64,000 nt of DNA from Clostridiales bacterium COT073_COT-073. Its GTDB lineage: Bacteria; Bacillota; Clostridia; Lachnospirales; Vallitaleaceae. The position numbers and the translations under genes are program-made. Numbering within the stretch: the stretch's first letter is position 1; every line of letters begins with the position of its first letter. Under the pieces are notes generated by a model that worked only from the letters and a program-made list of their open reading frames with translations, was not told the origin of the DNA and did not search any database. The stretch lies in the NCBI GenBank assembly GCA_003858485.1, contig RQYD01000015.1:1-64000 (forward strand). The letters run 5' to 3'. Below are positions 26,815 through 53,423 of this stretch, piece after piece.

Positions 26815-26867
26815 AAAAGATATATATTTGCACTATTTATAGTGCAAATATATATCTTTTATTTTTT
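26815..26867 (+). terminator. Very long perfect stem-loop terminator
   Basis: A 21-bp perfect stem (26815-26835 with 26840-26860) around a TTTA loop, followed by ATTTTTTAT. It closes the MurF-like locus; its position just before the SIS/PTS operon means it could also be an attenuator for that operon. Confidence 0.75.
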
Positions 26868-26942: not shown

Positions 26943-27995
26943 ATGATGGAGAGCATAAGGGAAATCCCCTTTAGAATAGAAAAAATTATAGCTGAATTTG
27001 AGATTATTTATCATGATATCATTTTGTATTTAAATAATTTTCAATTTAAGCCGGAAGAAATTGTTTTCATAGCAAGTGGAACTTCATTCAACGCTGCATT
27101 TGCCATTAAGAAATTTGTTGAAAATCATTTGAACATAAGAGTTACACTTAGATATCCCAATGATTTTACAAATGACGATATCATAAATAAGCATGCTGTT
27201 TATATATTTATTTCACAGAGCGGAAGAACAGCTGTTTTAAACGAGAAACTCGAATTTATAAAGAAGCGGGGACTTATTAATATATCAATTACCGCTGATG
27301 CCGAGAGTGCGGTAGCCTTAAATTCGGATCTGCATATTGATATGAGGGCGGGCTTTGAGAAACATGTATTCAGAACCAAGGGTTATAGCTGTAGTGTTGT
27401 CACATGCATTTGTGCGGCAATTTCAATAGCCAGATTCACAGACCGCATTGATGATAAATTACTAAAGAAATATATTGAAGATTTAAAAACTTTGCCTGTT
27501 TCAATTGCTCATATTATTGACTGTTCAGAAGACTGGGTTAAATCAAATATTTTGCTGATAGAAGGGAAAAAATGTGTATTATTTTCTGGCGAAGGAACTC
27601 TCTGGGCAGCAGCTCAGGAGGCGGCGATTAAATTTATGGAGATGATCCCGATAATCAGCAATTCTTATGAGATAGAGGAGCTGATTCATGGGCCGCAGAA
27701 TGCATTTGATCATGAGATGCTTTTTATACTGTTGTACAATAAATTTAAGAATTCTGATAGGATCATAAAAGTATATGAATTTATAAATAAGGAAATAGGA
27801 GACTGTATATTGCTTGGCAATAAGCCTTTATCCTCTAAGGATTTGTTGGTGAATTTTAAGAGTGAATATTTTTATTTTTTGGAAATGGTAACCGTATGTC
27901 AGGTATTAGCTTATTATTTTGCAATTCATAGAGGGAGGGATTTGACAAAGAGAATAAATTACGTTATAGACCAGTATATTTCAAAATCTATTTAA
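26943..27995 (+). CDS. SIS-domain sugar-phosphate enzyme (fructosamine deglycase/GlmS-isomerase-like)
   Basis: A 350-residue cytoplasmic protein with two SIS domains. Domain 1 has IASGTSFNAAFAIKKF and ISQSGRTAVLNE, the sugar-phosphate binding loops. Domain 2 has FSGEGTLWAAAQEAAIKFMEM and EIEELIHGPQ, which matches the catalytic region of GlmS isomerase and FrlB/GfrF-type deglycases. There is no glutaminase domain. Such enzymes split fructosamine 6-phosphates into glucose 6-P and a free amine. It is the first gene of a mannose-family PTS operon, as in deglycase operons of enterobacteria. AGAGGAGATG precedes the tandem ATGs. AgaS-type deaminase/isomerase activity is an alternative. Confidence 0.8.
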   Translation: MMESIREIPFRIEKIIAEFEIIYHDIILYLNNFQFKPEEIVFIASGTSFNAAFAIKKFVENHLNIRVTLRYPNDFTNDDIINKHAVYIFISQSGRTAVLNEKLEFIKKRGLINISITADAESAVALNSDLHIDMRAGFEKHVFRTKGYSCSVVTCICAAISIARFTDRIDDKLLKKYIEDLKTLPVSIAHIIDCSEDWVKSNILLIEGKKCVLFSGEGTLWAAAQEAAIKFMEMIPIISNSYEIEELIHGPQNAFDHEMLFILLYNKFKNSDRIIKVYEFINKEIGDCILLGNKPLSSKDLLVNFKSEYFYFLEMVTVCQVLAYYFAIHRGRDLTKRINYVIDQYISKSI

Positions 27996-28060
27996 ATGGA
28001 TGGGGGTGGTAAAAAATTCATGATATGAAGTCCATAATTATAAAATGAATGGAGGTGCTT

Positions 28061-28552
28061 ATGATTGTATTGGTTAGGATTGATGACAGGTTGTTGCATG
28101 GGCAAATTGCACTAAGCTGGAAGAGCGAGCTGGGATATGAGGCAATAGTGATTGCCGATGATTTAGTAAGTGGTGATGAATTCCGGAAAAATGTGTTAAA
28201 ATTAGCTGTTCCAAATGGTGTAAGACTGGCTGTCAGAACTTTGGATGAAGCGACAAATTTAATTAAACATGAGCAGTTACAAAAAATGAAAGTGCTTGTA
28301 ATTGTAGCGAGTACCAAAAGCGCCAGGGAATTTTATAATCGTATTGAAGAAAAACCTGTTTTAAATATAGGAGGCATCCAATCTTCAGATGGTAAGAGGA
28401 TGTTTTCCAGAGCCGTTTATTTTGATGACAATGATATAGAAAATTTAGATAATATTCAAGCTTCTGGAGTAGAACTAATGGTTCAGGAAATTCCCGGCAC
28501 TTCTAAATTTAAGTATTCTGATTTAAGGGCGAAGTTTAAAGGAGGAAAATAA
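28061..28552 (+). CDS. PTS mannose-family EIIB subunit
   Basis: A 163-residue phosphocarrier. It begins MIVLVRIDDRLLHGQIALSW, where His13 of DDRLLHGQ is the phosphorylated residue. ATG 28061 is chosen because GGAGG (28051-28055) lies 5 nt upstream. KVLVIVASTKSAREFY and IGGIQSSDGKRMFS are typical of the family. It accepts phosphate from an EIIA that is not encoded in this operon. The EIIC start is 2 nt after its stop. Confidence 0.92.
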   Translation: MIVLVRIDDRLLHGQIALSWKSELGYEAIVIADDLVSGDEFRKNVLKLAVPNGVRLAVRTLDEATNLIKHEQLQKMKVLVIVASTKSAREFYNRIEEKPVLNIGGIQSSDGKRMFSRAVYFDDNDIENLDNIQASGVELMVQEIPGTSKFKYSDLRAKFKGGK

Positions 28553-28554
28553 CA

Positions 28555-29331
28555 ATGTATGAAGCTTTGATAGTTGGACTTATATTAGCTGTTTTGTGGG
28601 CTTTGGAAAAATTATGGGGAACACCAATGGTGATAAGACCACTTGTGGTCTCAACTGTGGTGGGCATTGCACTTGGCAATATAGAAATTGGCTTATTAAC
28701 AGGGGCTACTTTGGAGTTGGTGTTTATGGGTGCTATTCAAATTGGCGGGGCTGTTCCGCCGGATGTATTGGTAGGAGCAGGGCTTGGAACTGCATTTGCA
28801 ATTATGAATAACCAGGGAGCAGAGGTGGCATTGACATTAGCACTCCCGATTGCTGTTTTGGCGCAATCTTTAAAGGTGATTGTATTTATTTTGCGGTCAT
28901 CATTTATGGATCATGCAATGAAATTGGCTAAAGAAGCAAATATAAAAGGACTTAGAAGATTGAATTTATTCGGACTATTCGTACAGTGTTTTATGTACTT
29001 TATTGTGGCATTTATTGCAATACTCTATGGTTCAGAAGCTGTGGGAGCGTTTGTAGAAAATATTCCCCAAAATGTTATAAATGGTTTAAAAGTAGCGGGA
29101 GGGCTTTTACCAGCAGTTGGTTTTGCTCTATTATTACAGCCACTATTGAACAAAAAAAATCTTATATATTTTATCATTGGATTTACTATTGTAACATATT
29201 TAAACCTTCCGATATTAGCTGTGACAATTTTGGCTATAGGAGTTGCATTTGTAGTTGTTTATGAAAGAGATTCAAATGTTGTAGCAATTGAAAATAAAAT
29301 TGAAAATGAGGAGGAATTATTCGATGTCTAG
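28555..29331 (+). CDS. PTS mannose-family EIIC subunit
   Basis: A 258-residue membrane channel subunit: VVGIALGNIEIGLLTGATLELVFMGAIQIGGAVPPD near residues 35-70, LAKEANIKGLRRLN, and GLKVAGGLLPAVGFALLLQPLL. It is intact from the first membrane segment and serves as a ruler for the truncated EIIC at 1281-1913. GGAGGAAAATAAC precedes the ATG. Its 3' end overlaps EIID by 8 bp. Confidence 0.92.
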   Translation: MYEALIVGLILAVLWALEKLWGTPMVIRPLVVSTVVGIALGNIEIGLLTGATLELVFMGAIQIGGAVPPDVLVGAGLGTAFAIMNNQGAEVALTLALPIAVLAQSLKVIVFILRSSFMDHAMKLAKEANIKGLRRLNLFGLFVQCFMYFIVAFIAILYGSEAVGAFVENIPQNVINGLKVAGGLLPAVGFALLLQPLLNKKNLIYFIIGFTIVTYLNLPILAVTILAIGVAFVVVYERDSNVVAIENKIENEEELFDV

Positions 29332-30154
29332 CATAAATAAAGCAGCGGGTGAATTGACCCCTAAAGAAAAAAAGTTGATTAATTCGTTATTTTTAAATTC
29401 ATTTTTATTGGAAGCGTGTTATAATTATGAAAGACAACAGGCACTTGGTTTTGCTGTGGGTATATATCCTGCAATAGAGGAATTCTACAAAGATGAGAAA
29501 GACAGGGCAGATGCACTGGAAAGGCATATGGCAATTTATAATACGACCCCTCATGTGTCATCAACCATTTCCGGAATAGTGGCTTCTCTTGAAAAAGAGG
29601 CCAGTGAAAATAAGGCATTTGATACTTCGATAATTAATAATATAAAAGTAAGCTTAATGGGGCCGTTTGCTGGCATTGGAGATTCGATATTTTGGGGAAC
29701 CCTTAGGATCATAGCAGCCGGCATAGGAATTTCACTTGCCCAACAAGGCAGTATCATGGGACCGGTTTTGTTTTTGGTGTTGTTTAATATTCCGCACTTA
29801 ATTGTAAGGTATTATGGCACGGTTATCGGGTACAAGATGGGAACTCAAGTACTGTCAAATTTATCTGGCTCATCAATGTTAAATAAAATTTCCAGGGCGG
29901 CTGCTATAGTAGGTTTGATTGTAATTGGTGCAATGAGTGCTTCAATGGTAAAACTTAAATTGGCACCTGTATTTGTAGTAGGAGAAACGGAGTTTCAAAT
30001 TCAAAACTATATTGACCAGATATATCCCTTATTATTAAGTTTATTATACACATTGGCGATGTTGGGCTTATTGAAGAAAGGCTATAAAAGTAGTGTAATT
30101 CTTATTATCACTTTGGTTATTGGGGTTGTAGGCAGTATAATAGGATTATTTTAA
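29324..30154 (+). CDS. PTS mannose-family EIID subunit
   Basis: A 276-residue subunit with LLEACYNYERQQALGFAVGIYP, ALERHMAIYNTTPHVSSTISG, SLMGPFAGIGDSIFWGTLRIIAAG and a hydrophobic C-terminus. ATG 29324 is preceded by GAGGAGG (about 29308-29314); an earlier in-frame start at 29288 lacks a site and lies within EIIC. It completes the EIIB-EIIC-EIID set. Confidence 0.92.
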   Translation: MSSINKAAGELTPKEKKLINSLFLNSFLLEACYNYERQQALGFAVGIYPAIEEFYKDEKDRADALERHMAIYNTTPHVSSTISGIVASLEKEASENKAFDTSIINNIKVSLMGPFAGIGDSIFWGTLRIIAAGIGISLAQQGSIMGPVLFLVLFNIPHLIVRYYGTVIGYKMGTQVLSNLSGSSMLNKISRAAAIVGLIVIGAMSASMVKLKLAPVFVVGETEFQIQNYIDQIYPLLLSLLYTLAMLGLLKKGYKSSVILIITLVIGVVGSIIGLF

Positions 30155-30272
30155 AGAAATTGATGTCAAGAAAAGGATGCTGATTTCATTATATGGCTTA
30201 AAAGCAAGATGGACAACTCCTGATGGATGTAAGAGATATTAACCATAAATATGTAGTTGAAAAGAGAATGGG

Positions 30273-32168
30273 ATGAGTTTATCACATAAAAAATATGCTA
30301 TTATATCGCTTCTTTTGGAAAGGGATGAATTTGTAAATTCCAAATTTATAGCTTTTTCATTGGGAATTTCCATAAGAAGTGTAAAAAGTTATATTCAGGC
30401 TATAAATGCGGAATGTGAAGACATTGGGCTTAAGATACTTGGTAAAAGAGGCAGAGGATATAAAATTTGGATGGCGGATAAGCAATCTGAAAATGAGATA
30501 AGGGCGAGGTATTCCTTAAAGTCAGTTGCCTTGCCCTATAATTATGAGAGCAGTGAGAGGGTTGATTTTATTACAAAATTATTACTTGAGAGGTTTAAGC
30601 CAATTTCAGTGGATGAGATTTTAGATACTCTTCATATATCAATACATAGTTTTAATAAGGATATGTTTTCGGTAAAGATGAGATTTAATAATTTTAGAAT
30701 AAAGGTAATGAATAAATCCGATGCTATTTATATAAAGGGAAGCGAAACGGATATAAGGCTTTGCATAAGGGAATACTTATATGGTGATTTTGAACTGGGT
30801 TCTAAATTTGAACATAAGGATGTACTTTATGATGAAATTCATGTGATTAAAGCCATGATCATTAATGCTCTCAATGAATACAATGCCAATATAGCTCCAT
30901 TGGTTTTAAATAATTTTGCTCTTCATATATATCTTGGTGTGCATAGATATAGAAATGGAAATAAGGTAATACTCTACAAATATGAGAACAGGTGGAATTT
31001 GGTATCTGAGGATGATTTGGCAATTAAATTATCTACTTGTCTATGCAGTTCCTTAAATAAGAGATATAATATTGATTTAAGCAGTGAAGAAATGCTTTAT
31101 TATGCACTTCATTTTAAGTGCAAGCTGATAAATTCAAAAAATGAAGAAGCCGAAACAGATTTAGCAAAGGATTGTGTAGAGGATATAGTCAAAGAGATTG
31201 AAAATAATTTTGGACTGGATTTTAGCGAAGATGACAGACTTTCAGAAAATTTAAAACTCCATATTCCTCCTATGATCACAAGGATTAAGGCACATATAGT
31301 ATCCAGAAATTCAGAGCTGACAGAAAATTTAAGGCAATACTTATTTGCAACAAAGATAACACATTCTGCTTGTCAGATAATTAAGAGATATTATGGTGTA
31401 ATGCCGGATGTTAATGAATTTGGTTATTTGGTCCTGTATTTTCAGATGGCACTTGCCAGGCTGATAGAGAAAAATCAATACCGGATAGGTGTGCTGATAC
31501 ATGGTGGAAGAGCACAGCAGTTGATGTATTTACATGATATTGCATTAAAGTTTGCTTCACAAAAATATAAATTCGAAATTTTAGATGTAAACAAAATTTT
31601 TAATGCAGATTATTTGAAGGACTATGATATGATAATTTCAACCGATGAAGTTGAATTGGCCAAAGACCTGAATTTATATTTGATCAAACGTGAAACCTAT
31701 TTACCTGATATAGCCAAATGTTTAGAAATGCTTGACTTTAAAGGGTTTTGCAAGGAGAAGTATTTTAGTGAAGCAAATTTTATAACGGATTTAAGTGTTT
31801 CCAATAAATTACAGGCTGAAAAAAAGATATTTGCATTTTTGCTAAAAAATGGGTATATTAAAAAAGGCTTTGAAGAATTCAGTGAATTTGAATTTACAGA
31901 GCTTGGGAAAGGCTTGGTTCATTTGCAGGATACCAAAAAAATCATTAGTAAGACTATATGTTTAGTCGTTGTATTAAGCCAAAGTATATACTGGAGTCAA
32001 AATCCGGTCAGGATCATACTGCTTACAAAGACCAAAAAAGACAGCGACCTGGATTTATATGCCATATGCAGCATGCTCTCAAGATGGGCTAAAAATGACT
32101 ATAATATAATAAGGCTTCTGGAAGAGAAGAATTTTAAAAAATTTTTTGAAGATTTAGGGAATACTTAA
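30273..32168 (+). CDS. PRD-containing transcriptional regulator/antiterminator with PTS domains
   Basis: A 631-residue multidomain regulator. In order: N-terminal HTH (LGISIRSVKSYIQAINAE, about residues 25-45), a second helical HTH-like region (about 100-150), PRD1 (about 185-290; LNNFALHIYLGVHRYRNG, MLYYALHFKC), PRD2 (about 300-405; LKLHIPPMITRIKAHI, EFGYLVLYFQMALAR), an EIIB-like domain (YRIGVLIHGGRAQQL, YDMIISTDEV) and an EIIA(Fru/Mtl)-like domain (GKGLVHLQDTKKI to the end). PRD proteins are phosphorylated by HPr and EIIs and so switch PTS operons on when substrate is present. It lies 118 bp after EIID and likely controls this operon. Confidence 0.85.
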   Translation: MSLSHKKYAIISLLLERDEFVNSKFIAFSLGISIRSVKSYIQAINAECEDIGLKILGKRGRGYKIWMADKQSENEIRARYSLKSVALPYNYESSERVDFITKLLLERFKPISVDEILDTLHISIHSFNKDMFSVKMRFNNFRIKVMNKSDAIYIKGSETDIRLCIREYLYGDFELGSKFEHKDVLYDEIHVIKAMIINALNEYNANIAPLVLNNFALHIYLGVHRYRNGNKVILYKYENRWNLVSEDDLAIKLSTCLCSSLNKRYNIDLSSEEMLYYALHFKCKLINSKNEEAETDLAKDCVEDIVKEIENNFGLDFSEDDRLSENLKLHIPPMITRIKAHIVSRNSELTENLRQYLFATKITHSACQIIKRYYGVMPDVNEFGYLVLYFQMALARLIEKNQYRIGVLIHGGRAQQLMYLHDIALKFASQKYKFEILDVNKIFNADYLKDYDMIISTDEVELAKDLNLYLIKRETYLPDIAKCLEMLDFKGFCKEKYFSEANFITDLSVSNKLQAEKKIFAFLLKNGYIKKGFEEFSEFEFTELGKGLVHLQDTKKIISKTICLVVVLSQSIYWSQNPVRIILLTKTKKDSDLDLYAICSMLSRWAKNDYNIIRLLEEKNFKKFFEDLGNT

Positions 32169-32171
32169 AAG

Positions 32172-32912
32172 ATGGAGTTGGAAATGGGACTAACTAGAAT
32201 ACTATACTTATTTATTATAATTGTGTGTGGATTTTCGATCCAGACAGTATCAGGCTTTGGTTCGGCTGTATTTTCGATACCTTTGGCATTAATGGTTGTT
32301 AATAAATCAGCAGTATTGCCTGCTTTTTATATATTGTCAGCCCTTCAATCACTTACTATTGTCTTAAGTGATTATCAATATGTAAATTTAAAATTATTTT
32401 TGAGGATGATTGGCTTTGCAATAATTGGTGTGAGTTTGGCATTTGTAATAAATCAATTTTCAGATGTCAGCAGTATTGAGCGATTGATTGGTATTTATAT
32501 ATTTTTGAATTCGGCACTGTCAATATATAATCTTGTATATAAAACTGATGGTATGCCAAAACCAAGTGTGATTGACAATATATTTCCGGTTTTAAGCGGG
32601 ATGTTGCAGGCAATTTTTGGAATTGGCGGTCCTTTTATAGCAATGTATATGAATCGACAGGAGATGGATAAAAGACAGTATCGAGCAAATATTTGCTTTT
32701 ACTGGTGTTTTTTAAACCCTGTCTTGATAGTAAAGTTGATTCTGTCAAATGAAATGCAAATGGAGCATATTTGGACAACTTTATGGCTTATTCCGGCTAT
32801 GTATATTGGGATTATGATCGGCAAGCAAATCATAGACAGAATCAGTATTAAGCAGTTTAAGCTCTTTACCAATGTTTTGCTGATACTAATATCCTTGTCC
32901 ATAATATTTTAA
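32172..32912 (+). CDS. TauE/SafE (TSUP)-family membrane exporter
   Basis: A 246-residue membrane protein with about eight hydrophobic segments and the family blocks SIQTVSGFGSAVFSIPLAL (residues about 18-36) and PVLSGMLQAIFGIGGPFIAMYMN, the internal repeat of the same motif. TSUP proteins move sulfite, sulfonates or other organic anions. It starts 3 nt after the PRD regulator stop, so it is in the same transcript. Beside a SIS enzyme and a PTS, it may export a leftover anion of catabolism; the substrate is unknown. Confidence 0.85.
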   Translation: MELEMGLTRILYLFIIIVCGFSIQTVSGFGSAVFSIPLALMVVNKSAVLPAFYILSALQSLTIVLSDYQYVNLKLFLRMIGFAIIGVSLAFVINQFSDVSSIERLIGIYIFLNSALSIYNLVYKTDGMPKPSVIDNIFPVLSGMLQAIFGIGGPFIAMYMNRQEMDKRQYRANICFYWCFLNPVLIVKLILSNEMQMEHIWTTLWLIPAMYIGIMIGKQIIDRISIKQFKLFTNVLLILISLSIIF

Positions 32913-47378: not shown

Positions 47379-47511
47379 AAAATAAAATAAAAAAAAATAA
47401 TCATTAAAATAAAAATAGAAAAAATGTGAAAGAAAAAGCCGGTTAAATAAAGCTGTCCGGATTAATTTAAAATTTGGCCGATTGAGCATCAGGCAAAAAA
47501 GGAGATCACCA

Positions 47512-48876
47512 GTGAAAAATATTTTATATATTCATACCCATGATTCCGGTCGCATCATCAGCCCCTATGGCTATCAAGTTTCTACTCCTAATTTGCAAAA
47601 ATTTGCACAGACAGCCACCGTCTTTCGCAATGCATATTGTGTTGGCCCGACATGTTCTCCAAGCCGGGCCGGACTTTTGACTGGAACTTATCCCCATCAA
47701 AATGGGATGCTGGGATTAGCACAAAGAGGTTTTGAGCTGGATTATCAAAAACATTTGGTAAGGTATTTAAACAAACATGGTTATATGACTGTTTTATGTG
47801 GCATTCAGCATGAATCCGGCTGGTATTTGGACAGAGGAGAAGCGGCTGAAAAAATTGGCTACCAACAGGAGTTAACAACTGACAGCCGGGGAATTGCCGA
47901 AGAAGAATTAATTCATTGGGATAAGGCCAATGCCGATGAAGTTAGCCATTGGCTGAAATCAGATCAAAGCGGACAGCCATTTTTTCTTTCTTACGGTATG
48001 TTTGCGACTCATCGGAATTTTCCGGTGCCGGAGGAAGGCTCTGTTTTAGCAGATTATACCCGGGTCCCTTACCCGGTTCCGGATACTGAAGAAACCAGAA
48101 AGGATTTTGCCGGTTATTTATTAAGCATTCAAAGTGCAGATGATTGCTTTGGACAAGTAATAGAAGCGTTAAAGGAAAGCGGCCACTGGGAAGATACGAT
48201 CATTATTTTCACCACAGATCATGGACTGGCCAATCCATTTGCCAAATGCACTTTGTTTGATAGTGGGATCGGTGTGGCATTGATGATGCGGGTACCGCAG
48301 ATCAAGGGAAGGGTATTAGACAGTTTGGTTTCGCAAATTGATATTTTCCCAACCATTTGTGATCTGCTGGAGTTGCCGAAACCGGAATATCTGGAAGGAG
48401 TATCTTTGCTGCCACTGCTGATAAAGGAACAAAAAGAAGTCAGACAGGAGATCATGGCTGAGATTAATTTTCATACTTCTTATGAACCGGCCCGCTGTAT
48501 CAGGAATCAAAGATATAAATATATTCGTTATTTTGATCCCGAATATTTGCGGATCAATCAGTCCAATATTGATGAATCGCTGACCAAAGATTTTTTTAAT
48601 GAACAGGGATTGCAGCAATATATAAAAGCAGAAGAAGCGTTATACGATCTGACATTTGATCCCAGTGAACGAAATAATCTGGCGGTTAATGCCGAGTACC
48701 GGGAAATAAAAGAAGAATTAAAACAAAAATTATTGGATTGGCAAATAAAGACACAGGATCCGATTTTAAATGGTGAAATTAAAATAAGACCGGAGTGGAA
48801 AGTGAATACTAAACAATGTCAAAAAGCAAAGTCTGGCCGACCGGAGGATTATGTTCAGGTCAGCCAAAGTCAATAA
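47512..48876 (+). CDS. Cytoplasmic sulfatase (N-sulfoglucosamine-sulfohydrolase-like)
   Basis: A 454-residue type I sulfatase. The start is GTG 47512, 8 nt after AAAAAGGAG; no signal peptide is present, so it acts in the cytoplasm. The formylglycine motif C-S-P-S-R is at Cys48-Arg52 (PTCSPSRAGLLTGTYPHQNGM), requiring an anSME-type radical SAM maturase, not seen in this window. Other blocks are FTTDHGLANPFAKCTLFD (metal site), VSQIDIFPTICDLLELP and QRYKYIRYFDPE. It is closest in style to heparan N-sulfatases. Next to a PTS it should remove sulfate from an imported sulfated (amino) sugar phosphate. A longer TTG start (47482) lacks a site. Confidence 0.87.
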   Translation: MKNILYIHTHDSGRIISPYGYQVSTPNLQKFAQTATVFRNAYCVGPTCSPSRAGLLTGTYPHQNGMLGLAQRGFELDYQKHLVRYLNKHGYMTVLCGIQHESGWYLDRGEAAEKIGYQQELTTDSRGIAEEELIHWDKANADEVSHWLKSDQSGQPFFLSYGMFATHRNFPVPEEGSVLADYTRVPYPVPDTEETRKDFAGYLLSIQSADDCFGQVIEALKESGHWEDTIIIFTTDHGLANPFAKCTLFDSGIGVALMMRVPQIKGRVLDSLVSQIDIFPTICDLLELPKPEYLEGVSLLPLLIKEQKEVRQEIMAEINFHTSYEPARCIRNQRYKYIRYFDPEYLRINQSNIDESLTKDFFNEQGLQQYIKAEEALYDLTFDPSERNNLAVNAEYREIKEELKQKLLDWQIKTQDPILNGEIKIRPEWKVNTKQCQKAKSGRPEDYVQVSQSQ

Positions 48877-49152
48877 ATTTTCTGTAAGCAAAGAGATGAC
48901 ATGAAAAAGGAGGACTTTGAGTAACACCTGAAGATGATTCTTATTATGCAGTGATTCCGGTGAATTTAAAGCTGGTTGGCATCTGATTTTCAGAGAATTG
49001 GCAATCGCTCAGTGTACAGTCATGATGTTGGGTTTGTTATTTGCAGCACAGGGTTGCTTACTTTGTGCTTTTCTGAAGATCAAATGTGATCCAGTCCTGT
49101 AATTACTGCGGTCTATATAAATACATTATGACAGGAGTAAGGAGGCAAAGGT

Positions 49153-49956
49153 ATGAGTTTTTTGCAAGCATTATTAATTGGCTTATTTGCTTATTTGGGA
49201 AGTAAGCGTACCCCGTGGGTATTTGGGGTCACCGGTGGGTGGAATATGATTGGTCGCCCTTTAGTTGCCGGACTGATTATCGGCGTTATTTTGGGTGATG
49301 TCAGAAGTGGAGTAATTGCCGGTGCCATGGTCCAGGCTTTGTTTATTGGACAGATTACGCCGGGCGGAGCAATGCCGGCTGATGTTAACTGGGCTTCATA
49401 TATTGGCATTCCACTGGCCTTGGCTGCCGGAGGAACCGGTGAGCAGGCAGTGGCATTGGCAGTTCCATTGAGTATGCTGGGTTTGGGCTTGTTTAACTTT
49501 ATCATGACCATTAATGCTTATTTTCCGCATATGGGTGACAGAGCTGCTGAAAAAGGAGATGGTGCCGGTATTCGCCGGGCTACTTATTTAACAGTGATTC
49601 CCAGCTTTATTTTAAGAGCCGGTTCAGCCATGCTGATTTGCTATTTAGGAGCGCCGTTGGCCGAATCATTAATTAATAATATGCCGACTCAAGTTTTGCA
49701 TTTCTTTGCTGTGGCTGGCCGGATGCTGCCGGCAGTTGGTTTTGCCATGTTGATCAAACAATCATTATCACAAAAATGGATGATTATTTTGTTCCTGATG
49801 GGCTGGATAATCATTGGAGCAACCAATATGACAGTAACAGCCTTGGCCATTCTGGCAGCCGGTATTGCTGCATTATTTGTAATGGCTAAGGGAGAAACCA
49901 AAGTGGTAACCGCAGGCACCCAGACCGATGAGGAGGATGATTGCTATGAAGAATAA
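49153..49956 (+). CDS. PTS mannose-family EIIC subunit
   Basis: A 267-residue membrane subunit: GRPLVAGLIIGVILGDVRSGVIAGAMVQALFIGQITPGGAMPADVNWASY, VALAVPLSMLGLGLF, VAGRMLPAVGFAMLIKQSL. The ITPGGAMPAD variant resembles N-acetylgalactosamine/hexosamine-type EIICs (AgaW/AgaC) more than mannose ones, which is a weak hint to an amino-sugar substrate. AAGGAGGCAAAG precedes the ATG. The 276-bp gap before it holds no clear gene or terminator. Confidence 0.9.
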   Translation: MSFLQALLIGLFAYLGSKRTPWVFGVTGGWNMIGRPLVAGLIIGVILGDVRSGVIAGAMVQALFIGQITPGGAMPADVNWASYIGIPLALAAGGTGEQAVALAVPLSMLGLGLFNFIMTINAYFPHMGDRAAEKGDGAGIRRATYLTVIPSFILRAGSAMLICYLGAPLAESLINNMPTQVLHFFAVAGRMLPAVGFAMLIKQSLSQKWMIILFLMGWIIIGATNMTVTALAILAAGIAALFVMAKGETKVVTAGTQTDEEDDCYEE

Positions 49957-50776
49957 AAATGCAATATTAAGCCGTAAGGATATAAATAAAGCTGCCTGGT
50001 CATATATCTTTTTTTCACAGGCAACCCAGAATTTTGAACGGATGATGGGATTGGCATTTTGCTATGTAATGGAACCGATTTTAAAGAAATTATATGCTGA
50101 TAAACCGGAAGAATATAAAAAGGCATTGCAGCGGCATATGCAGTTTTTTAATACAGAGCCGCAGCTGGGGGCTTTAATCCCGGGTATTACCATTGCTATG
50201 GAGGAAGCCAGAGCACAGGGAGAAGATGTTAGTGAAGAATTAATTGTTAATACCAAGAATGCTTTAATGGGACCTTTTGCCGGAATTGGTGATTCGATGA
50301 TCATTGGAACTTATAGCCCGATTTTACTTAGTATTGCCATGAGTATGTGTCTGGAAGACGGCAATCCGATTGGGCCATTGTTTTTCTGCGTGGTCTGGCT
50401 GACCACAATAGTGGGAATGCAGTGGTACTTGTTCCATAAAGGATATAGCATGGGAATTGGGGCAGCTAATACCTTTTTTACCAATAAAGAGTTGGCCGAT
50501 AAAATTACTACCGGCTTAACCATGCTGGGATTGATCGTGATTGGCGGAGTAGCTTCAACTACTGTTCGGGCCGGAGTTATCTATAAATTTGTCAGTGGTG
50601 AAATGTCAATTTCTATTCAGGAACGAATCTTTGATAAAATCATGCCCGGAATTTTACCCTTGTTGCTTACCATTGGAGCCTGGTATTTAATGGATAAGAA
50701 AAAATGGAAAACCACCCAAATCATTTTGGGAATTACAGTATTAGCAGCCATTATGGTATTTTTAGGAATTATGTAA
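49946..50776 (+). CDS. PTS mannose-family EIID subunit
   Basis: A 276-residue subunit with FSQATQNFERMMGLAFCYVMEP, ALQRHMQFFNTEPQLGALIPGITIAMEEARAQG, LMGPFAGIGDSMIIGTYSPILLSIAMS and a hydrophobic end. ATG 49946 follows GAGGAGGA by about 8 nt and overlaps EIIC by 11 bp; an in-frame ATG at 49928 is part of the ribosome-site region. It forms the channel with the preceding EIIC. Confidence 0.92.
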   Translation: MKNKNAILSRKDINKAAWSYIFFSQATQNFERMMGLAFCYVMEPILKKLYADKPEEYKKALQRHMQFFNTEPQLGALIPGITIAMEEARAQGEDVSEELIVNTKNALMGPFAGIGDSMIIGTYSPILLSIAMSMCLEDGNPIGPLFFCVVWLTTIVGMQWYLFHKGYSMGIGAANTFFTNKELADKITTGLTMLGLIVIGGVASTTVRAGVIYKFVSGEMSISIQERIFDKIMPGILPLLLTIGAWYLMDKKKWKTTQIILGITVLAAIMVFLGIM

Positions 50777-50781
50777 TTGAG

Positions 50782-50850
50782 ATATTTGGATATGCAAAAT
50801 CGAGAGATACATCCTGTGATCACAGGAAAAATTCTTTCGATTTTGCAGTA
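50782..50850 (+). promoter_or_regulatory. Intercistronic stem-loop between EIID and EIIB
   Basis: CAAAATCGA pairs with TCGATTTTG, and inside TCCTGTGATCACAGGA is a perfect palindrome. No T-run follows, so it is probably an mRNA-stabilising or processing hairpin, or an operator, rather than a terminator. Confidence 0.5.
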
Positions 50851-50864
50851 AAAAGGAGCTAAAT

Positions 50865-51341
50865 ATGGAGATAGTAAATGTTAGAATTGACGACAGGTTA
50901 ATTCACGGTCAGGTAGCGACCATTTGGAGTTTAACTACCAAGGCCACCCGAATCATGGTGATTGATGATCAGGTGGTGAAAGATGTGATCAATAAAGAAG
51001 CATTAAAAATGGCCTGCCCCAAACAATGCAAATTGTCAATTTTAAATGTGGAAAGAGCAGCTGAAAATTTAAAAGCCGGAAAATATGAAGGGGAACGTGT
51101 TTTTATAGTGGCAAAAAGCCCCAAAACATATAAGGACTTATATGATGCCGGTTTCCATATGGAAAACATTAATGTTGGCAATATGGCTGGTGGCTCTAAT
51201 ACCAAAATGCTGAAAAAGGCAGTTAGTGTTACCCAGGACAATATTGAGGATTTTTTATATTTAATTGAAAAGGGGGTTAAGATTACAGCTCAAATGGTAC
51301 CAACCGATGAGGCTATGGATTTTGCTAAGTTATTAAGCTAG
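50865..51341 (+). CDS. PTS mannose-family EIIB subunit
   Basis: A 158-residue phosphocarrier beginning MEIVNVRIDDRLIHGQVATIW; His14 in DDRLIHGQ is the phosphorylated residue. VFIVAKSPKTYKDLYDAGF and INVGNMAGGSNTKMLKKAVSV are family blocks. AAAAGGAG precedes the ATG. The order EIIC-EIID-EIIB is less common than EIIB-EIIC-EIID. No EIIA is present in the locus. Confidence 0.93.
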   Translation: MEIVNVRIDDRLIHGQVATIWSLTTKATRIMVIDDQVVKDVINKEALKMACPKQCKLSILNVERAAENLKAGKYEGERVFIVAKSPKTYKDLYDAGFHMENINVGNMAGGSNTKMLKKAVSVTQDNIEDFLYLIEKGVKITAQMVPTDEAMDFAKLLS

Positions 51342-51348
51342 CTTTTTT

Positions 51349-51472
51349 GAGTTCCTTAGAACAATCTTTTTAGGCAAATGTCGCAAACATTTTTTTCGCA
51401 GAAAAGAATGAAAGCTGTGTAATGGTTTTGCGGAGCGGGATAGAGCCGAAAAAGACTGGGAAAAAGTGAATT
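51349..51472. repeat. Dispersed inverted-repeat element, copy D
   Basis: The right half GAGCGGGATAGAGCCGAAAAAGACTGGG (core at 51433-51460) is nearly identical to copy B; the left half AGTTCCTTAGAACAATCTTTTTAGGC is its imperfect inverse. It follows EIIB directly and precedes the DUF3604 gene. Confidence 0.6.
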
Positions 51473-51542
51473 CGCTAACAAGATAAAACAGTCAAATACA
51501 GAATCAATGAGATGGGAAAAATGACTTTAGAGAAGGAAAATT

Positions 51543-53423
51543 ATGAAAGAATCAACTATTACAAATAACTATGGAACCTTTACAGTTGAAATTCCGGAAA
51601 CAGTGACCGTTGACGGAGAAATCGGTTGGCATATCAAATTTGCATTAAGCACGCCGGTTGCCAAAGGCGGCGGAATTCGAATCGTATTTCCGGCGTATAC
51701 GCACCAGCGTTCAATCGAATATGTTCAGAATATTGACTATTGGAAGCCGCATTTTATTTATGCCTATTTTGAAGAGGAAAATGCCGGATTAAAGACCAGA
51801 GTCGAAAAAATTGATTCGGAGTTTACGCATATTTTACGTTGGCCCGACAGTGATCGGATTGCAGTGATCACTGCTCAGGAAGATTGGCCGGCGGGTGCGG
51901 TTTTACATATTTTTTACGGTGGCATTGATCGGATGTGGCTGAAAGGAAGGGTTTGTCCAACCAGGGCGCCACATCATGCTACCTTTGCTGATGGTACTTT
52001 CTTACAATATGAATTCAGTATTGATGGTCAGGGAAATGGAGAGTATAAAAAGCTGGATATTATTCCATCCGTTCGGGTCAATCCGGATGAAGCTCTATAT
52101 CTTAGTGTGGCTGCTCCGACAGCAGTAAGGCCAGGGCAGAAGTTTAAGATAAGCTATACCGTGGGCGATCGTTTTCATAACCCGATTTGGAAATATACCG
52201 ATCAACCGCAATTTATCCTGCGAAATCTAAAAACCGGTCAAGAAACGCAAATTTTAAATGAGGACGGTTTGATTGAAGAGGAGGGATATTATGAGGTGGA
52301 TTGCCGGAATCTAAAACTGAAAACAGAAAAGGCAGTGATTTGCTGTCAAGCTGATGCACAGCCGATTTATTGGGGAGATACTCATTGCCACACAGTATTA
52401 ACTCCGAATATTCATGATAATAATAATGGTGCCTGTCCTCAGGATGCTTATAATTATGCACAGAAAGTTTCCAATTTGGATTTTGTGTGCTTGGTTGAAC
52501 AAACTTTTATTTTTGATGACAATGCCAAGCAAAATATTACGCCGCAACTATGGGAAAAAATCAGGGAAATCTCCAATCAAAATTATACTCCCGGACAATT
52601 TGTTACTTTCCCGGGTTTTGAGCTGCACAGTCAAAGAGGCGATACGGTAGTCTTTTTTGCTGAAGATATGTCAAATTTTCAATATCCGGCGGAAGTTGTG
52701 GATATCTATGATGTTTGGCGACTTTATCAGGGCAAGGACTATATGACCGTTCCTCATTTTCATCGTTATTGCGGTGGTCGTCTGATCAAAGATCAACAGG
52801 AACAGCAGCATAGCGGCTTTGACTTGAAGAATTGGGAGCCGGCTGATGACGCGGAACGTCTATGTGAATTTTATTCTGCACAATGGGGGCGGTTTGAATA
52901 TCCGGGTAATCCAATGCTGCTGAAAGCCATGTCCAACATTCCGGAAAATGATGTAAACTCATTTTTAAATCGTGGAAAAATTTGGGGCATGACAGCCGGC
53001 AGTGATGACCATGACTCGATGCCCGGTCATGGCGGTTTGACGGCAGTGTATGCTGATGCTTTAACCCGGGAAGGGGTGTTTAAGGGCTTGAAAAACAGGC
53101 AGACTTATGCCACTACTCACACCCGGATGTACTTGAATTATCAACTGGCAGAAAGGCCAATTGGCGAAAGTTTGATGGCCAGTCAGGCAAAAGCTGGAGA
53201 TGCTTTGGTGTTAAAGGCAGCTATGGCGGCACCGGTTAACATTCGGTCGGTTGACTTAATTGTCAATGGCCAGGTTTTTCAAAAAATTGCAGTCAATGAA
53301 AGATGGCTGGAAACCGAATTGACAGTTCCCGCAGAAATGATGTCTGCCGGCAGCTACCTTTATGTGCGGGTAAAATTGGCAGATGAAAACATAGTGGTGG
53401 GCAGCCCGATTTGGGTAAAATAA
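51543..53423 (+). CDS. DUF3604 protein (PHP-like metal hydrolase)
   Basis: A 626-residue protein. The N-terminal half (about 1-270) is beta-rich and may bind substrate; the C-terminal half has metal-site motifs of a PHP-like fold: PIYWGDTHCHTVLTPN (about 278-293), FVTFPGFELHSQRGDTVVFF, VPHFHRYCGGR and TAGSDDHDSMPGHGG. The family occurs with sulfatases and carbohydrate genes, but its reaction is not established. It has no signal peptide. GAGAAGGAAAATT precedes the ATG. It lies about 200 bp after EIIB with a repeat element in between, and probably belongs to the sulfated-sugar locus. Confidence 0.75.
   Translation: MKESTITNNYGTFTVEIPETVTVDGEIGWHIKFALSTPVAKGGGIRIVFPAYTHQRSIEYVQNIDYWKPHFIYAYFEEENAGLKTRVEKIDSEFTHILRWPDSDRIAVITAQEDWPAGAVLHIFYGGIDRMWLKGRVCPTRAPHHATFADGTFLQYEFSIDGQGNGEYKKLDIIPSVRVNPDEALYLSVAAPTAVRPGQKFKISYTVGDRFHNPIWKYTDQPQFILRNLKTGQETQILNEDGLIEEEGYYEVDCRNLKLKTEKAVICCQADAQPIYWGDTHCHTVLTPNIHDNNNGACPQDAYNYAQKVSNLDFVCLVEQTFIFDDNAKQNITPQLWEKIREISNQNYTPGQFVTFPGFELHSQRGDTVVFFAEDMSNFQYPAEVVDIYDVWRLYQGKDYMTVPHFHRYCGGRLIKDQQEQQHSGFDLKNWEPADDAERLCEFYSAQWGRFEYPGNPMLLKAMSNIPENDVNSFLNRGKIWGMTAGSDDHDSMPGHGGLTAVYADALTREGVFKGLKNRQTYATTHTRMYLNYQLAERPIGESLMASQAKAGDALVLKAAMAAPVNIRSVDLIVNGQVFQKIAVNERWLETELTVPAEMMSAGSYLYVRVKLADENIVVGSPIWVK

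Follow-up and report, generated by a model that had tools for sequence, protein, structure and literature searches.

What substrate is handled by an operon that joins a SIS enzyme to a mannose-family PTS, a PRD regulator and a TauE/SafE (TSUP) membrane protein? The operon in question lies at positions 26943-32912 of a 64,000-nt stretch of the Clostridiales bacterium COT073_COT-073 genome, referred to here as the window. It comprises six genes on the + strand: a 350-aa SIS protein (26943-27995; PF01380, 67.5 bits), IIB (PTSIIB_sorb, 28049-28552; PF03830, 142 bits), IIC (EII-Sor, 28555-29331; PF03609, 225.8 bits), IID (EIID-AGA, 29324-30154; PF03613, 317.7 bits), a PRD protein (30273-32168; Pfam PRD, 72.9 bits) and the TSUP protein (32172-32912; PF01925, 81.9 bits, with a gathering threshold of 32.6 bits). 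A sequence-only reading had described this six-gene arrangement, and its gene positions and strand are borne out, with all six Pfam families scoring above their cut-offs. The start codon of IID is uncertain; the open reading frame begins at 29288 and the likely ATG is at 29324, and the use of 29318, six bases earlier, in some family scans did not affect the match. The genes are separated by 53 nt (SIS-IIB), 2 nt (IIB-IIC) and 118 nt (IID-PRD), IIC and IID overlap, and the gap between PRD and TSUP is 3 nt, as had been noted, provided that TSUP begins at its own first ATG. Neither the gene calls nor the Pfam families place an IIA gene within 26943-32912. The GC content of the operon is 34%, compared with 42% for thrS, one of the neighboring housekeeping genes that lie above it, and a similar 33% for the sugar-uptake region on the left.

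The identity of the SIS protein is central to the question. The sequence-only reading had pointed to an EELIHGPQ region and to the lack of a glutaminase domain; the former is found at residues 245-252, and the protein aligns to GlmS over the isomerase half only. In a tree of 36 SIS proteins that included references, the window protein joins 11 others, all from the gene cassette described below, with support of about 95-97/95-96. The sister group consists of SIS proteins, several of which adjoin BadF-family kinases. Together, these two clades (18 proteins) join GfrE and the PDB structures 3knz and 3g68, which are solved but have no assigned function, at 100/100, with the window protein outside the GfrE clade proper, in a separate subclade of the common superclade. 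GlmS, NagB-II/GlmD-like enzymes and AgaS fall outside this superclade, as do FrlB and GfrF, which form a clade of their own (99/96). The tree therefore rules out an Amadori deglycase of the FrlB/GfrF type. It also rules out an AgaS-type deaminase, the grouping that the sequence-only reading had named as grounds for abandoning its proposal. Model scores were also low: the SIS protein reaches 70 of 430 bits with NF046059 and 44 of 580 bits with NF041128, short of the NagB-II/GlmD cut-offs, and 37.5 bits with the FrlB model, for which the cut-off is 430, and the AgaS-family NCBIfam model gave no match at 0.001. The best generic matches are GlmS and NagB-II. Identity is at most 42% to any related protein and about 27% to GfrE. 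No close relative was found in the 22 genomes of the family, and the best match among 392 genomes of the order is 38% identical.

Alignment to E. coli GlmS shows that the sugar-phosphate/phosphate-binding and catalytic residues G301, T302, S303, S347, Q348, T352, K485, E488 and H504 are kept, whereas K603 and the C-terminal PRNLxK tail of GlmS are missing. At the site equivalent to GlmS Ser401, Arg is invariant throughout the window clade and its sister clade (18 proteins); the corresponding residue is Val in GfrE, Lys in 3knz/3g68, and Met in AgaS and NagB-II-like enzymes. We take this residue, by analogy with GlmS, to face the amine substituent. An AlphaFold model of the protein (pLDDT 88.4) is closest to the structures 3g68 and 2aml, both of the GfrE clade, with the GlmS isomerase domain ranking just behind them. 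By phylogeny, the SIS protein thus appears to represent an uncharacterized subfamily that forms its own subclade beside GfrE, and a literature search for biochemical evidence on this subclade returned none. GlmS itself was not found in any of the three genomes of the window's genus, one of which is a single contig, whereas the remaining 19 family members all have it; NagB occurs in each of the three.

The operon is not an isolated arrangement. The gene order SIS-IIA-IIB-IIC-IID is present in 11 distinct relatives, counting identical contigs once, from Bacillaceae, Lachnospiraceae, Vagococcus and Erysipelothrix. A scan of named genomes with a two-sequence alignment as the query returned 16 loci; an earlier scan with a single protein as the query had returned no match. 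One cassette contig is filed under Arthrobacter, but the cassette is nearly identical to that of Bacillus, so the contig may be misassigned. The PRD activator follows IID in nine of the 11 relatives, and in the other two (Lachnospiraceae) a LevR-type sigma-54 regulator stands in front. A YitT-family protein (PF02588 + DUF2179) closes the cassette in nine relatives and is absent from those of Vagococcus and Erysipelothrix (L081, L082). No further cassette was found at E < 1e-60 in 398 genomes of the phylum, and 391 genomes of the class gave one case of a sister-type SIS. The cassette SIS-IIA-IIB-IIC-IID-PRD-YitT is therefore rare and conserved, and we found no description of it in the literature. 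Sister-subfamily SIS genes lie beside BadF-family kinases at three loci (L050, L051 and L091), the second of which also includes genes for a GH9 enzyme and for an ABC importer; these are possibly a non-PTS version of the chemistry of the window operon.

The window operon shares with the cassette orthologous SIS (33-42% identity), IIB, IIC (57-67%), IID (about 60%) and PRD (25-30%) genes in the same order, as well as the operator palindrome discussed below. It differs in having no IIA between SIS and IIB, in having TSUP where YitT stands after PRD, and in lacking the TATGGA found just behind the operator in the majority of relatives. In a tree of IIC proteins, the window IIC groups with those of the cassettes, separate from GfrC; long branches outside the cassette clade make the deeper order of this tree unsure. 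These comparisons suggest that the window operon is a divergent member of the cassette family.

The genome does encode one mannose-type IIA, and only one, as an orphan on another contig (C97, 10045-10464). Compared with it by BLAST, the cassette IIAs rank before GfrA, the AgaS-linked IIA and ManX. Given that the sole mannose-type IIA is elsewhere and most resembles those of the cassettes, the cassette IIA has probably left the operon for another locus, an origin for which the BLAST ranking is the basis, the IIA tree being mostly unresolved. The orphan may serve all three mannose-type PTS loci of the window. At 686-1913, a class II aldolase gene without its 3' part continues, out of frame, into an IIC gene without its 5' part; this looks like the junction of a deletion, or a fault of the assembly, within a mannose PTS locus of the GfrC-like kind. 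At 47482-53423, a sulfatase with an N-sulphoglucosamine sulphohydrolase C-terminal domain is encoded with a mannose-type IIC-IID-IIB and a DUF3604 protein, and use of sulfated glycosaminoglycans by this locus is possible.

Additional evidence for a shared system comes from the region upstream of the SIS gene. A 46-bp hairpin with a T-rich tail (26815-26860) holds a perfect palindrome, TTGCAC-N8-GTGCAA (26828-26847); the hairpin might also terminate the upstream gene. A motif of this type, DTGCAY-N8-RTGCAH, occurs 75-115 nt upstream of the SIS start, with a full match in the window and in seven of the nine PRD-type cassettes, and the remaining two are one or two bases off TTGCAC-N8-GTGCAA. Among the carriers of the operator, the lineages of the window, Erysipelothrix and Vagococcus are independent of one another. 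The palindrome is absent at a LevR-type locus (L074), and none was seen near the orphan IIA gene. Dinucleotide shuffles of the 250-nt upstream regions contained the motif in 0 to 0.25% of cases, and 580 kb of other retrieved DNA contained five matches, numbers that are descriptive since the motif was defined on these very loci. A single match to the loose motif in the window as a whole is not unusual (30 of 100 shuffles); it is position and conservation, not window-wide rarity, that carry the argument for an operator. The palindrome of the window is the sole exact match in the 3.54-Mb genome, and five more sites have one mismatch, compared with two for a control pattern. A wider regulon was rejected on these counts.

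The regulator itself has HTH_11, Mga and two PRD domains, along with a weak EIIA_2-like domain that scores below threshold. His280, His330 and His550 are invariant in an alignment of eight orthologs, which fits control of the PRD protein by PTS phosphorylation. Co-occurrence of the regulator and the palindrome suggests that the former binds the latter.

The TSUP gene is harder to place. It occupies the slot held by YitT in nine of the 11 relatives, and no relative has a TSUP gene in its cassette, an outcome that the sequence-only reading had listed as one that would refute it. Its nearest homologue in 392 genomes of the order is 25% identical and is the only other with E < 1e-20; it lies in an operon (L053, 2771-9293) with a YihQ-type GH31, an FSA-like transaldolase, a 3-hydroxyisobutyrate-type dehydrogenase and DUF4867; this operon is probably one for sulfoquinovose (sulfo-TAL), in which the TSUP would be the exporter. 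TSUPs of similar distance sit in unrelated gene contexts, and a search of plasmids gave distant matches only. The window protein passes the Pfam TauE model, as do exporters of this family that include those of sulfoquinovose operons, but its identity to any TSUP found is about 25-28% at most, and it is tied to an amine-sugar PTS rather than to a sulfonate pathway. The view that TSUP is an integral part of the system, which the sequence-only reading had taken, does not hold for the relatives, and the neighborhood search for SIS with TSUP that the same reading had recommended turned up no conserved pair, either in the 11 relatives or beside the nearest TSUP homologues. We propose that TSUP is a lineage-specific replacement of YitT, as judged from gene context. 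As a one-off addition among the cassettes, its role is unproven; export of the released amine is possible, though weakly supported. Proximity of PTS and TSUP genes as such is not new, since in Streptococcus pneumoniae a PTS and a sulfatase were already observed next to a TauE protein (PMC3283741). A literature search for YitT-family proteins found neither an export function nor any other known function.

The closest parallel to the operon is gfrABCDEF, which is found in Salmonella, Klebsiella and Enterococcus. The gfr system has been described (PMC12675984), GfrE interconverts glucoselysine-6-phosphate and fructose-6-phosphate plus lysine (PMC12735817), and operons that join a PTS with a homologue of the GlmS isomerase were described earlier (PMC5270733). 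Both gfr and the window operon combine a mannose-family PTS with a GlmS-isomerase-like SIS protein in one operon, and the SIS proteins share a superclade and have equally kept catalytic residues. There are important differences. The window operon has one SIS protein where gfr has the GfrE + GfrF pair; its regulator is HTH-Mga-PRD-EIIA2-like, not the sigma-54-dependent GfrR; IIB, IIC and IID are present, with IIA outside the operon; the SIS and IIC clades are separate from GfrE and GfrC; and the PRD activator, palindromic operator and TSUP are its own. In the absence of GfrF, a sigma-54 regulator and IIA, this is not a gfr operon.

The most economical reading of the window operon is GfrE-type chemistry: it would take up an N-substituted 2-amino-2-deoxyhexose resembling glucoselysine and split it inside the cell. 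We hold this explanation, taken whole, to be probable, if only modestly so. IIC and IID would import the sugar, and IIB, charged by IIA from another locus, would phosphorylate it at C6. The SIS enzyme, a putative sugar-amine 6-phosphate lyase, would then cleave the C2-N bond to give fructose-6-phosphate and a free amine, as GfrE does. On PTS phosphorylation, the PRD protein would bind TTGCAC-N8-GTGCAA and activate the operon, and TSUP, standing where relatives have YitT, might carry the amine or some other anion out of the cell. The low identity to GfrE and to every other related protein and the missing GfrF, sigma-54 regulator and IIA count against this explanation, as do the sister-clade SIS proteins with BadF-type kinases, one of them near a GH9 gene, which also fit free glucosamine.

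The latter point leads to the strongest alternative, namely that a free amino sugar such as glucosamine is imported as GlcN-6-P and deaminated by the SIS enzyme to fructose-6-phosphate and ammonia, with TSUP unrelated. The generic matches to GlmS and NagB-II, the retention of K485, E488 and H504, the sister-clade gene neighborhoods and the top model for IIC, the GalNAc IIC AgaW (under its cut-off), are all consistent with this. However, two NagB proteins that score above the curated cut-off are already encoded in the genome, and the SIS protein groups with neither NagB-II/GlmD nor AgaS and lacks the PRxLxK tail common to GlmS and GlmD. We consider this alternative a real but minority prospect.

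A narrower version of the N-substituted-sugar reading would give the invariant Arg a function. The SIS subfamily would cleave an N-substituted glucosamine-6-phosphate that bears a negative charge, such as the adduct of glucose with taurine or with an acidic amino acid, recognized by the Arg at the Ser401 position, and the interchangeable YitT and TSUP would export the anionic amine. This is a speculative proposal, to which we attach a low probability.

Less probable again is the proposal of the sequence-only reading, in which an Amadori compound is taken up and cleaved and TSUP exports the anion left over, perhaps taurine or another sulfonated amine; the sulfonated amine is a guess. The link it drew between a deglycase-like SIS protein and a mannose-family PTS is upheld by the 100/100 tree node and the 11 relatives. 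FrlB, FraB and GfrF also have a SIS fold and act on sugar-amine 6-phosphates. The Amadori-type deglycation itself fares worse: these enzymes form a separate clade and lack the Lys of GlmS position 485 that the window protein keeps, and its closest characterized counterpart, GfrE, is no Amadori deglycase. While the position of TSUP just behind the PRD gene, the sulfoquinovose-type context of its nearest homologue and an Arg that could hold an anionic substituent are compatible with anion export, TSUP is missing from every relative, and that homologue is only 25% identical, with equally distant TSUPs in unrelated contexts. Finally, synthesis of glucosamine-6-phosphate from fructose-6-phosphate and ammonia, in place of the GlmS missing from the genus, is highly improbable even though the SIS protein is the genome's only match to the whole GlmS isomerase half, since the two congeners lack both genes, so that it cannot be a genus-wide replacement, K603 and the tail are missing, the gene sits in a PTS operon, and NagB could run in reverse.

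The operon thus belongs with a rare and apparently unstudied PTS-deglycase cassette of gut and environmental Firmicutes that has its own SIS subfamily and operator. Identifying the substrate would extend the known diet of gut bacteria by a glycation product from food or by an amino-sugar adduct, and the exchange of YitT for TSUP behind one regulator offers a testable clue to the role of the YitT family.
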